DNA of 64,000 bases from Jaapia argillacea MUCL 33604. Taxonomy: Eukaryota; Basidiomycota; Agaricomycetes; Jaapiales; Jaapiaceae. A model generated the notes under the pieces. The model was given only the letters and a program-made list of their open reading frames with translations, had not been told where the DNA came from and did not search any database. Shown here piece by piece: positions 12,227 to 53,880 of this stretch; the stretch's first letter is position 1; each line of letters starts with the position of its first letter. Both the position numbers and the translations under genes were made by a program. The stretch covers positions 224,786-288,785 of the forward strand of contig KL197717.1 in assembly GCA_000697665.1 (NCBI GenBank), written 5' to 3'.

Positions 12227-12683
12227 NNNNNNNNNNNNNNNNNNNNNNNNNNNNNNNNNNNNNNNNNNNNNNNNNNNNNNNNNNNNNNNNNNNNNNNNNN
12301 NNNNNNNNNNNNNNNNNNNNNNNNNNNNNNNNNNNNNNNNNNNNNNNNNNNNNNNNNNNNNNNNNNNNNNNNNNNNNNNNNNNNNNNNNNNNNNNNNNNN
12401 NNNNNNNNNNNNNNNNNNNNNNNNNNNNNNNNNNNNNNNNNNNNNNNNNNNNNNNNNNNNNNNNNNNNNNNNNNNNNNNNNNNNNNNNNNNNNNNNNNNN
12501 NNNNNNNNNNNNNNNNNNNNNNNNNNNNNNNNNNNNNNNNNNNNNNNNNNNNNNNNNNNNNNNNNNNNNNNNNNNNNNNNNNNNNNNNNNNNNNNNNNNN
12601 NNNNNNNNNNNNNNNNNNNNNNNNNNNNNNNNNNNNNNNNNNNNNNNNNNNNNNNNNNNNNNNNNNNNNNNNNNNNNNNNNNN
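12227..12683. other. Assembly gap (run of N)
   Basis: 457 unresolved bases. Both flanks are G/A-rich on the plus strand (AGATGGAAAGAGATGG on the left, AAGAGGGGGGGGAAGAGG on the right), so the gap probably spans a purine-rich simple repeat. Long frames reported across it would be artefacts of the Ns. Confidence 0.99.
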
Positions 12684-44213: not shown

Positions 44214-47200
44214 ATGTCCATCCTCCCTCCTCTCGCCATGCTCGCTGTCCGGCTTTGGTTCTTTGTACTATGGCTTTGTTCGTTCGTCACTGGTTCTTTC
44301 GTGAATGATATAATCGCGGCGCTAGAACAAGCTGTTGATTGTGGGAGTTGTCATGCTGCTTTGGCTCCGTTGCAGATGTTGGCGCATATGGGGGATAAGA
44401 CGTTTGTCAAGACTATCGTTGCTGTTTGTGTCGTGCTTAGGGTGAGTAATAATGCGTGTTTGGGTTGGGTGGTGGTTGGGGCGTGACACTTATGGTGGTT
44501 GGATTAGATTGAAGATCCCGATGTTTGTGATGGCGCTATCGCGGAACAAGGGCCTATACTCGCCCATTCACTTCGTTCGATATCCATAACAGGAGAGACG
44601 GCTACTCTTCTCTGTGATGCTGTTTTCGGGTGAGGCCTCTGTTCTCGTTACCCGTGTTTTTACGATCCTTGAATGCTTACGACGATCCTTCCTCTCGACG
44701 TAGCTTATGTCAACCACCCCCAGTCCACCCACTTACCATCCAATTCCCGAAAGTAGAACCCTACCCTCCAAAGCAATTCGTATCGAGTGGGAAACCGAGG
44801 ATACAGGTGGCGCACTTTAGTGATGTTCACATTGATCGGCAATATACCGTACGTCTGCCTCTCCTCTCTCTCTCCTCTTTCTCTCCACTCTCTCCCTCCC
44901 CGTCCTTCACCCTCTCACCTACACCCCAAATCCAGGTAGGTTCCGAAACAAACTGCACAAAACCTATCTGCTGCCGTCAATACCCCGACTCCTCCCCCCC
45001 TCTCATAAAACCAGCTCGAGAAAACGGCGAAATCAGGATGTGTGATACGCCGGGTGAGTTGGCGGATTCGATGTTGGAGGCTGTTGGGCACGTCGCGCCG
45101 GATTTGGGGTGGGCGATTTTTACGGGGGATGTTGCTGAAGGTGCGTTTTCCTGTTATGATATATGAGGGGTTGGGTACTGATGTAGGGGGTAGCGGCGGT
45201 TTGGAGCTTGGATAGGAAGTGAGTTTGCTTCGCTTTTTTGGGGGGTGGGGGTTGGGCTGATGCAGGGGGTGTAGGGAGGTGTCGAATGATTTGAAGTTGT
45301 TTAATGAACAATTAGGAGAGAAGTTGGACGTCCCTGTTTATGGTGTTTTTGGTATGTTCCCTCCCTCCCTCCTCCCTCCTTGTGTACTTACCTTCATTCT
45401 TCATCCCTAGGTAACCAGTAAGCACACCCTTTTCGCGTTTGGATGGCAGGGAATATTAAGGCGATTTGGGTGGTAGTGATATATCACCTGTTAATGGATT
45501 CCCGAGGAATACGACTGTCATCGAAGATGCGCAATGGGTATTTGATTTGCAGAGCGATGGGTGGGCTGTGAGTAGTCCTTTCTTCTACCCTTCAACCATT
45601 CGCCTCCATCTCATGCTGATTCTTTTGGGGCGTAGCAATGGATAACTTCGTCTTCGGCGGCTCAGCTCGCTGAGAATTCGGGGTGTTATTCTAGTGTTGT
45701 ACCCGGTACGAATCTGAGGTGAGTTCCTCTTTTCCGTTGGGTGGTTTTTGAGTGGATGGAGCTGATGTTGGTGGATGGGTAGGATGGTCTCGATTAGTAC
45801 GAATTATTGGTATAAGCAAAAGTGAGTGTTCCATCGCGCTGTGTTGGTGAGGAGGGAGGGGAACTGATTTTTGGGGTAGTTTTTGGTTGTATGATAGTGA
45901 TACGAGACAGTATGTTCCTTTCCTTCCTTTCCCTTCCTTTCCTGTGGTGATGACTGATGTACTTCCTTTGTCTCTTTTGTGGATCGTCGTCGTTGTTGTT
46001 GTTGTTGGGTAGACACGACCCGAATGGGATATTGGCGTTTATGGTACAAGAGTTACAAGCTGCTGAGGATGAGGGACAGAGAGCTTGGATTTTTGGTCAT
46101 ATGCCTATGGGTGGGGGTGATGTTTTGCATGATCAGGTGAGTTTTGGTTTGGTTCTGGTTACTTGTTTCTTGTTCCCATCGCCGATCTCGAGGCTTTCGT
46201 ATTCCTCTCCACCCCTTCGTAACTCGTTGTTGATGCTCATGTGTGCCGTTTGTTTGTAGTCGAATTATTACAACCAGATCATCAAGCGGTATAGGAATAC
46301 GATCGCCGGTCAGTTCTTTGGACATACACACGGGGTAAGCAGCTCCCTTCCCACCTTTCCCCCCTTGCGAGCGATTTGGTTAACTCGTGTGGTGGGGTTC
46401 GTAGGATCATTTCCAGATTGCGTATTCGGATTATGATAACCAGACTCCTGAAACTGCTATGAGCTTTGCTTCGATTGCGCCTGCTTTGACTCCTAGAAGT
46501 GCGTATTTATCTGCTTTGGGTGGGGCGTTGGGTGTTGGGTGGGGCTGATGTTTGGCGGGTTAGGTGGACATCCTGCATTTAAGATTTATGATATTGATCC
46601 GGATACTTATGAGTTGATGGATGTGAAGGTTTTTTATAGTGGGTTTTTTGTGGGCTTTTTGGGTTGATGGTGGTGCTGATTGGATCGGATTTTTAGCGAA
46701 TATGACTGAACCGAGTTTCAGGAGGAAACGTGAGTAGTTTCCCTCTTATCCTCCATTTTCCACTCCTCATCCCCTCCCCTCCCCTCGCTCGCTCGCTCGT
46801 CTCCCCCCAGCGCAATGGAAACTCTACTACAGCGCCCAAGAAACCTACGGTCCTCTCATCACAGGCCACAAGATCCATCAAGACCCACTCAGCCCAGCAT
46901 TTTGGCATAACCTAACAGAAGTGTTTGCTACGAACCATACGGCTCTCGGACAATTTTTGCAGAGGAGGAATAGGAGTGAGAGACCTAGGAGATGTGTTGG
47001 GTATTGTGTTGAGAAGACTATTTGTGATATGAGGGCTTTTAGGTCGGAGAATAATTGTGTATGTTTTTTCCTTTGGGTCCGGGTGGGACGCGAGCTGATT
47101 TTGTTGGGTGATGTAGGTGAAGGTTACGCCTGGTGTTCCTGGGTTTGGGCCTGGTGGGTTTGAGGATGGGGATGGAGAGGGGTGGGTACAGGGGGATGAG

Positions 47201-47387
47201 TGGGAAGAGGAGGAGGAGGATTGTGAAGGTGTTGGGATTGGGAGGTTGTTTAGGAAGGCTATTGCGGGCAGGGTACGTTCTTTTTGAAATAGGAGTTGGT
47301 AATTCGTTGATGTGATGCTTTTTTTAGCGGTCGGCCTTGCAGAGTTCTCGGTTATTACAGACTCAGCCTGGAATCGATCAGTCATGA
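44214..47387 (+). CDS. Secreted acid sphingomyelinase (sphingomyelin phosphodiesterase)
   Basis: Hydrolyses sphingomyelin or a related fungal phosphosphingolipid, acting outside the cell or in the vacuole. A signal sequence (MLAVRLWFFVLWLCSFVTG) follows a short leader. A saposin-B domain comes next with paired cysteines (VDCGSCHAAL, DVCDGAIAEQGP, LCDAVFGLC). The calcineurin-type metallophosphatase domain has HFSDVHIDRQY, the Cys-rich insert NCTKPICCRQYPD, IFTGDVAE, GNHDISPVNGFP, HMPMGGGD and FFGHTHGDHFQ, which together supply the dinuclear metal ligands. The C-terminal part has DVKVFYTNMTEPSF and KLYYSAQETYGP and ends in an acidic stretch. The gene is cut into very many exons. GNHD is built from exon 6 (ends G at 45351), a 7-nt exon 45411-45417 (GTAACCA) and exon 8 (from 45477). 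Substrate preference is not visible. Confidence 0.93.
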
Positions 47388-52637: not shown

Positions 52638-53880
52638 AGAAAATCGCGCCAACTGTGTGAATGCTTCGAGATGAGATGGAAGGAGAGGGAGTTTCCTGTG
52701 AACAGGGTCCACGCGGATCTTCAGCGACCCGCGAACGGTTGCACGAACGAGAGGGTCGACACGACTTTTGTCGAAATTGGGATAAAGGTCGTGTAGGAAG
52801 TGGCTCCGGTGCGCAAAGGCTGTCAGACCAATGACTAGTCGTTGTGGAGGGGACGCAAGCGTAGAAGTGTGGTGAATGGCAGAGACAATTGCAGCCAACT
52901 CGAGAAAGAAGATGTCGATTTTGATGTGAGGGGGAGGCTCTCGGATAGCGTAGTAAAAGCCGGAGTCACCAGTGACAAGAGCGAGACCCAATCGGAGGCT
53001 CGCATCTGCTCGCATCAGTCCACATCACCATATCGGCCTCACCATCCTTCCAATATCCTCTGTCAACGAATCGAACTCCGATGGATCGAGGGATAATATC
53101 TGTTAGCCAAAGGAGGTCTGATTTGACCTGGGAATTGATGGGAATGCAAGCCAAAGCAGAGGTTTTATTCTTCGTCTTGCGATAAAGCTCGGAAAGAGCA
53201 GGGCAGTCCCAAGGAAGGACATTGAGGAGCCAATTGAGGTGCCCAGCGAGGCGTTGCCATTGTCGAAGAGGAGGCTTGTGATCAACAGTGTCGAGAAATC
53301 CGCAGATCGTCCCAACGAGGTCGGAAATGGAGGAAGGAGTGAGGGAGATGCTACCACTAGTGATGTCAACGTAGAACCCAATGATCTTGATAGTGGACCC
53401 ATGTTCTTGTTTCTTGTGAGAGCAGGGACAACCAGTGGTGTCCCAAAACTGCAGGAGCTGGACTTGCCGATATGGACGAAGTTGACCATGGAACATGACA
53501 AGGTTGTCAGCAAAATCCCAGCCATAAAACTCGTCCATATAAACATGTAGGTCAAGGATGTGAAAGATATGGATCACACAAGGCGTCATACAGCGCACCA
53601 AAGGCGAGGCGAAGCACGGTTCCCAAAAACGAGACGTCCGACAGTGTAAAAGTGACCGTCCACGCACACAATTTGACGTAATTGTCGCAAGGGATGCACA
53701 GGGAGATTGAGGAAAGCAGAAGAAACGTCGTCTTTAAAAAGAAGTAGAGGGATGTTTTGACAAGCGATGCGAGGATCACGAAAGGATTGTCCAAAATCGT
53801 GCATGTTGTCGTAGCGAACGTAGGTATAATTCCCGTTGGGACGGGCATCGACTCTACGAGTTGGAGGCGTTTGTGAGCGA
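52638..53880 (-). mobile_element. Broken reverse transcriptase-RNase H fragment of a retroelement
   Basis: Minus-strand frames, with at least one shift near 53590, spell a reverse transcriptase in order: NGNYTYVRYDNMHDFGQSF, LLLFKDDVSSAFLNLPVHPL, GRLVFGNRASPRLWC, VYMDEFYGWDFADNL, KIIGFYVDITSG, WQRLAGHLNWLLNVLPW and VKSDLLWLTDIIPRSIGV. An RNase H-like end follows (IKIDIFFLELAAIVSAI), with a final stop at about 52632. This arrangement matches a reverse transcriptase type frequent in agaricomycete genomes, perhaps DIRS-like, but no recombinase or terminal repeat is visible here. The usual YVDD box reads YMDE. The frameshift and missing 5' part show that the copy is dead. Confidence 0.85.

Follow-up and report, generated by a model that had tools for sequence, protein, structure and literature searches.

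The locus considered here raises the question of whether seven bases, GTAACCA, can constitute a coding exon of their own. They lie at positions 45411-45417 of the window, by which is meant the whole 64,000-nt stretch of the genome of the basidiomycete Jaapia argillacea MUCL 33604 (contig KL197717.1) that was analysed, and a first-pass annotation had read them as an exon that supplies part of a sphingomyelinase's metal-binding motif, GNHD, that needs special splicing enhancers and that gene callers usually miss. The seven-base exon is probably real and easily missed by gene-finding programs, and the argument for this begins with the gene in which it lies. The features on which the argument draws are as follows.

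44214-47387, plus strand: predicted acid sphingomyelinase (ASMase) gene of 19 exons, 638 aa; the exon chain was assembled by hand and has an unbroken frame to the stop at 47387
45194-45218, plus strand: exon 5 of this chain, very small, 25 nt
45275-45351, plus strand: exon 6, 77 nt, ending in phase 1 after ...DVPVYGVF-G; homologous to PVPVYPAVG of a solved ASMase
45352-45410, plus strand: upstream intron, 59 nt, GTATGT...CCCTAG, with a branch-like CTTAC 24 nt from the intron end
45411-45417, plus strand: exon 7, the 7-nt microexon GTAACCA, phase 1 to 2, between two 59-nt GT-AG introns
45418-45476, plus strand: downstream intron, 59 nt, GTAAGC...GGTAG, with zero branch-point matches by the pattern used
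45477-45567, plus strand: exon 8, 91 nt, which completes the His codon and continues DISPVNGFPRNTT...; PVNGFP in common with ASMase 5fi9
45880-45909, plus strand: exon 11, very small, 30 nt, FWLYDSDTRQ region, aligned with NFWL of a solved ASMase

The exons of the predicted gene range from 7 to 248 nt and its 18 introns, all of them GT-AG, from 53 to 123 nt; further very small exons were noted at 45783-45821 (39 nt) and 46697-46729 (33 nt). Introns this short and this numerous would suit a basidiomycete gene. A sequence search of the PDB with the 638-aa protein returned, at E 0.001, 12 distinct sequences, 4 of them ASMases and the other 8 ASMase-like 3a/3b phosphodiesterases, entries which we take to be mammalian. 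The ASMases rank highest (E 6e-66 to 7.7e-62, the best being 5fi9), above the 3a/3b proteins (4e-29 to 1.2e-25). Two Pfam domains of the spliced protein, Metallophos (PF00149, 34.3 bits against a cut-off of 21.5) and ASMase_C (PF19272, 25.9 bits against 23.7), exceed their curated cut-offs, and it is the solved ASMases, not other phosphoesterases, that are nearest to it. The ASMase alignment begins at residue 68, ahead of the catalytic domain, and no saposin model is reported by Pfam at E 0.001. Enzymes of the calcineurin type carry the motifs DxH, GD, GNH[DE], GH and GHTH in that order, and translation of the spliced gene together with its ASMase alignment gives SDVH, TGD, GNHD, GHMP and GHTH. 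The gene is accordingly best described as predicted to encode an ASMase-type calcineurin-fold enzyme, with an activity presumed from this likeness, and the family assignment given in the first-pass annotation agrees with both the homology and the domain content. Elsewhere in the window, a run of 457 N (12227-12683) marks a gap or masked stretch, and an ORF of 233 aa on the minus strand (52966-53667) resembles, by eye, that end of a retroelement which carries reverse transcriptase/RNase H.

At the join itself, exon 6 closes in phase 1 with the G at 45351 and exon 8 opens at 45477 with TGATATATCACC, so that GTAACCA supplies two thirds of the Gly codon, the whole of the Asn codon and two thirds of the His codon of GNHD (residues 268-271). 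The spliced product across the join, PVYGVFGNHDISPVNGF, reads DVPVYGVF-GNHD-ISPVNGFP and aligns to the solved ASMase 5fi9 across exons 6, 7 and 8 without a gap. The exon, its position and its letters had thus been given exactly in the first-pass annotation. It is a microexon in the sense of an exon that is internal, no longer than 15 nt, flanked by the canonical AG and GT and bordered by a full-length intron on each side, and at 7 nt it falls outside the regulated cassettes of the neuronal type, whose length is usually a multiple of 3, so that both forms stay in frame. The 18-mer CCTAGGTAACCAGTAAGC occurs a single time in the 43.7-Mb assembly. An origin of the region from an introner or repeat was considered and rejected, the 151-nt stretch 45340-45490 matching itself alone in the genome in a search that leaves out simple repeats and words of very high frequency.

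Splice outcomes between 45330 and 45487 were enumerated with GT or GC donors, AG acceptors and a minimum intron length of 30 nt. Of the 170 outcomes obtained, 57 remove a single intron, 112 remove two and one is the unspliced form; 36 of the 170 are in frame with exon 8. Only two of these 36 contain GNH[DE]; both pass through 45411-45417, one from donor 45352 and the other from donor 45343, while none of the 57 one-intron outcomes keeps both the frame and the motif. The earlier assertion that a single join can give GNHD is therefore correct as to the microexon, which both outcomes use, but a little too strong as to the donor, for which there are two candidates.

The strength of the sites was judged with donor and acceptor matrices built from the remaining 16 introns of the gene, which were themselves scored leave-one-out. 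In the upstream intron, donor 45352 scores 2.74 bits (1 of the 16 others is lower) and acceptor 45410 scores 4.09 (4 lower); the corresponding values for the downstream intron are 5.54 bits at donor 45418 (4 lower) and 5.88 at acceptor 45476 (10 lower). The pattern that finds no branch point in the downstream intron finds a branch-like match in 15 of the 16 other introns, some of them at unlikely distances. As the upstream donor TTG/GTATGT is one of the weaker donors of the gene and the downstream intron is without a recognisable branch point, splicing could be inefficient. Of the 64 paths in which no intron is shorter than 45 nt, the four best all include the microexon, and their two in-frame members rank 1 (18.2 bits) and 2 (17.0 bits). 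This ranking is based on summed splice scores, which give two-intron paths an advantage; counted per site, the path that retains the upstream intron does better (11.4 bits over 2 sites against 18.2 over 4), although it yields a stop. It was also observed that the microexon opens with GT immediately after the acceptor AG, in the manner of a recursive splice site, this GT scoring 0.62 bits as a donor.

The consequences of losing the seven bases were examined in turn. Skipping, that is direct removal of 45352-45476, gives a product of 300 aa with an out-of-frame tail, in which no Pfam family is found at E 0.1; if the upstream intron is retained a stop is met at that intron's end, and if the downstream intron is retained the protein ends in GNQ-stop. 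Since 7 is not divisible by 3, the microexon would have to be included for the enzyme to be made. Two in-frame models lacking the microexon were tested, both of nearly full length (641 and 637 aa); their ASMase_C score is the same, and Metallophos drops to 16.5 and 14.2 bits, below the cut-off of 21.5. The annotation risk for such exons is in this way demonstrated in principle, as the first-pass annotation had maintained, and a gene model without the seven bases, its defining Pfam domain having fallen below threshold, might enter a database as a protein that is inactive or of unknown kind. The predicted ASMase gene is, moreover, absent from the 17 matches of a six-frame PF00149 search of the genome. 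GNH[DE] is contiguous in one frame at all 17 of those loci, in a search that is biased towards exons holding the motif, and at least two pairs of the loci (L004/L006 and L005/L010) represent one gene each.

A search with the spliced protein found at least two paralogs in the genome, L034 on contig C4 and L035 on the minus strand of contig C2, which are termed ASMase-like solely by their similarity to the protein of the window. Both have GNHD unsplit, with no microexon at that position, and L034 and L035 thus lack the introns that interrupt GNHD in the gene of the window; the two proteins read PVYAVLGNHD and PVYPALGNHD, with three residues between PVY and GNHD. Each paralog has tiny exons of its own at other positions.

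C4:1886204-1886210 (L034 3705-3711): 7-nt exon GGTACCG, phase 1 to 2
C2:835839-835845, minus strand (L035 3340-3346): 7-nt exon GGTATCG, phase 1 to 2
C4:1886551-1886560 (L034 4052-4061): 10-nt exon TCTATCAAAT, phase 1 to 2
C2:835489-835498, minus strand (L035 2990-2999): 10-nt exon TCTATCAAAT, phase 1 to 2

Nine consecutive modelled exons have the same lengths in both paralogs (83, 54, 143, 7, 104, 69, 10, 32 and 38 nt); their borders were placed by eye, guided by homology, they translate without a stop and they lie in the catalytic domain. When L034 and L035 were globally aligned the eight introns were 47-58% identical and the nine exons 60-100%. That the same tiny exons appear to have been kept while the introns drifted is good evidence, at a level below that of transcripts, that such exons are spliced in this genome. 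Tiny exons seem routine in its ASMase family, and, taken with the gene of the window, the paralogs suggest that exons of 7-10 nt between introns of about 50-60 nt are ordinary in these genes. The predicted 7-nt and 10-nt exons of the two paralogs, elsewhere in the gene, are what is new here. Relatives were also sought more widely. Among viral contigs, a query of 302 residues from GNHD onwards, without the C-terminal tail, gave 1 pattern stretch and no relatives, and among genome contigs a query of 301 catalytic-domain residues gave 15 pattern stretches and no relatives. With the 82 residues of exon 17 as query, 3 pattern stretches and 2 loci (L036 and L037) were found in viral contigs; these were rejected as chance, the match being one of 21 residues with an internal stop and the ORFs of L037 appearing phage-like by eye.

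How easily such an arrangement might arise by accident was assessed with dinucleotide shuffles of the 125-nt stretch 45352-45476. A tiny exon that does no more than restore the frame arose in 12,281 of 20,000 shuffles, and to that extent a coincidence within intron sequence would be unremarkable. The frame argument alone is consequently weak and it is the motif that carries the weight: any exon of 1-30 nt yielding an in-frame GNH[DE] was found in just 3 of 20,000 shuffles, and the exact form AG-GNAAYCA-GT, flanked on both sides by 30 nt or more, in 22 of 200,000. Homology, in addition, predicts the motif at exactly this place, and we regard a chance match as having a negligible probability. 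Very unlikely, too, is the reading of 45352-45476 as one intron in a gene whose protein is without GNHD, be it through decay of the gene or through use of an in-frame variant, 45352-45460 (giving FGDLGGSD) or 45356-45476 (giving FGID). Four one-intron outcomes are indeed in frame without the motif, but none of them is among the six best-scoring one-intron paths, and the sites concerned are weak (-6.1 bits for donor 45356, 1.2 bits for acceptor 45460). Direct removal of 45352-45476 would shift the frame and leave the 300-aa product, whereas the remaining reading frame of the gene is intact, and GNH[DE] is present at this position in three ASMase alignments and in both paralogs.

A further possibility accepts the microexon but joins it from donor 45343, with PVYGNHD as the product. 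This path is in frame, includes GNHD and is second in score, yet its donor reaches 1.5 bits against 2.74 for donor 45352, and three positions between PVY and GNH that are filled in the solved ASMases (three alignments) and in both paralogs would be lost. Donor 45352 is preferred because those alignments and paralogs have three residues there, and use of 45343 is given very little credence. Somewhat less remote, though still improbable, is the proposal that the 7-mer is a recursive splice site, CCCTAG/GTAACC, and that a second round of splicing may remove it to leave a non-productive mRNA that regulates the gene. The adjacency of AG and GT would suit this, as would the frameshifts or stops that follow from skipping or retention. 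The GT may, however, be incidental, because Gly is encoded by GGN and the exon must open with G followed by any base; as a donor it is far below the 5.54 bits of donor 45418, and the end product would be without GNHD. In a stwintron, or in recursive splicing, all of the intervening bases would have to be removed with frame and motif kept. Splicing of this kind without a retained exon was rejected, as no one-intron product (0 of 57) keeps both and the donor is weak.

The explanation we favour, and hold with high confidence from the genomic sequence, is that a fungal ASMase gene has in GTAACCA a coding exon of 7 nt that is constitutive and is retained between two 59-nt introns that would be removed by intron definition. 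The spliceosome would take out two ordinary 59-nt introns independently, each being recognised as a unit, and the seven bases would remain between them as exon 6 (...GVF-G) is joined to exon 8 (T-GAT...), making Gly-Asn-His-Asp, a metal-site motif of the calcineurin-like fold. Under intron definition the length of the exon should hardly matter, and failure by intron retention would be likelier than skipping. Fungi, basidiomycetes included, have been inferred to splice mainly by intron definition (PMC2397502); a review holds that its efficiency is set by the length of the intron and not of the exon (PMC8624252), and a microexon of Caenorhabditis elegans tcer-1 between 58-nt introns is described as independent of the microexon factor PRP-40 (PMC8378409). 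Special enhancers, which the first-pass annotation considered necessary, are an argument made for exon definition with long introns; they are not implied here, because 59-nt introns suit intron definition, the usual fungal mode, and the paralogs have 7- and 10-nt exons as well. Splicing in the cell, its intron-definition mode and the activity of the enzyme are what we infer from these comparisons.

Of the residues that the exon would contribute, the Asn of GNH[DE] is a metal ligand, and we take His317 of ASMase to be the His of the same motif. This numbering is supported by a paper on ASMase in which His317 is likened to the calcineurin His-Asp pair; seven conserved metal-ligand residues are described there, and replacement of His317 by Ala abolished activity on liposomes while activity on a soluble substrate was just slightly lowered (PMC4961792).

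It could be speculated, although we think it unlikely, that microexons running from phase 1 to phase 2 have arisen several times over in the ASMase genes of this fungus and that the short intron pairs act as a built-in gate, with an output tunable by intron retention. The sites are a 7-nt exon at GNHD in the gene of the window, and a 7-nt exon at W-Y-R and a 10-nt exon at F-Y-Q-I in both paralogs; all tiny exons of this set lie in the catalytic domain, which is the sole part of the paralogs modelled. If the genes were gated in this way, any lapse in splicing would result in no enzyme. Leaving such a gate aside, the microexon, real with high probability, would be ordinary in its mechanism and instructive for annotation. 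It illustrates cleanly how a motif essential to the active site can be hidden on an exon of a size that gene callers are apt to overlook, and it is relevant to the tolerance of intron definition for exons of nearly zero length.

With regard to known systems, the GTAACCA exon was not met among the matches listed in the literature searched (sphingomyelinase with microexon, and broader terms), and in the one fungal paper naming both words 'microexon' appears, in the text available, as an aligner option only (PMC4545319). Mammalian ASMase (5fi9, 5i81; PMC4961792) resembles the predicted protein in family, in motif order and in a gap-free alignment around GNH[DE], but it has GNHE where GNHD is found here. 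In Trichoderma virens, Xlr2 contains a microexon described as a functional switch (PMC11121469), which is likewise a filamentous-fungal microexon with a functional consequence; in that case the switch is regulatory, works by alternative splicing and sits in a transcription factor, whereas the present exon looks obligatory. Genes rich in small introns and exons are also known from basidiomycetes: the P450 genes of Phanerochaete chrysosporium have exons down to 6 bp (PMC1184071), and a paper on Laccaria bicolor says of basidiomycetes that frequent exons of fewer than 10 codons hamper their annotation (PMC2897884), although a tie to a named metal-binding motif is not stated in the parts of these papers concerned with small exons.

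Two further precedents are found in other enzymes. In Fusarium CYP621A P450 genes, a 1-nt exon with read support completes the PKG motif (PMC12940212). As in the gene described here, it is a fungal ultra-small exon in a conserved motif, with AG/GT flanks, entered in phase 1 and left in phase 2; it was found through homology in an apparent intron of about twice the normal length (139 nt, against 125 nt here), and its omission breaks the frame. It differs in its length, 1 nt rather than 7, and in belonging to a P450, and it is backed by 20 orthologues and 18 RNA reads, whereas the exon here is predicted from the genome sequence. In the plant GH32 enzymes, a 9-nt mini-exon 2 encodes the DPN of the NDPNG box (PMC4477480, PMC8831610), so that here too a tiny exon bears a catalytic residue of a hydrolase and its loss leaves a putatively inactive enzyme; that exon is of 9 nt, the frame survives its loss, the hosts are plants and, in chicory 1-FEH I, the first intron is 5,693 bp and the second 90 bp. 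The kind of exon to which GTAACCA belongs is already known, therefore, from other fungal and plant genes.
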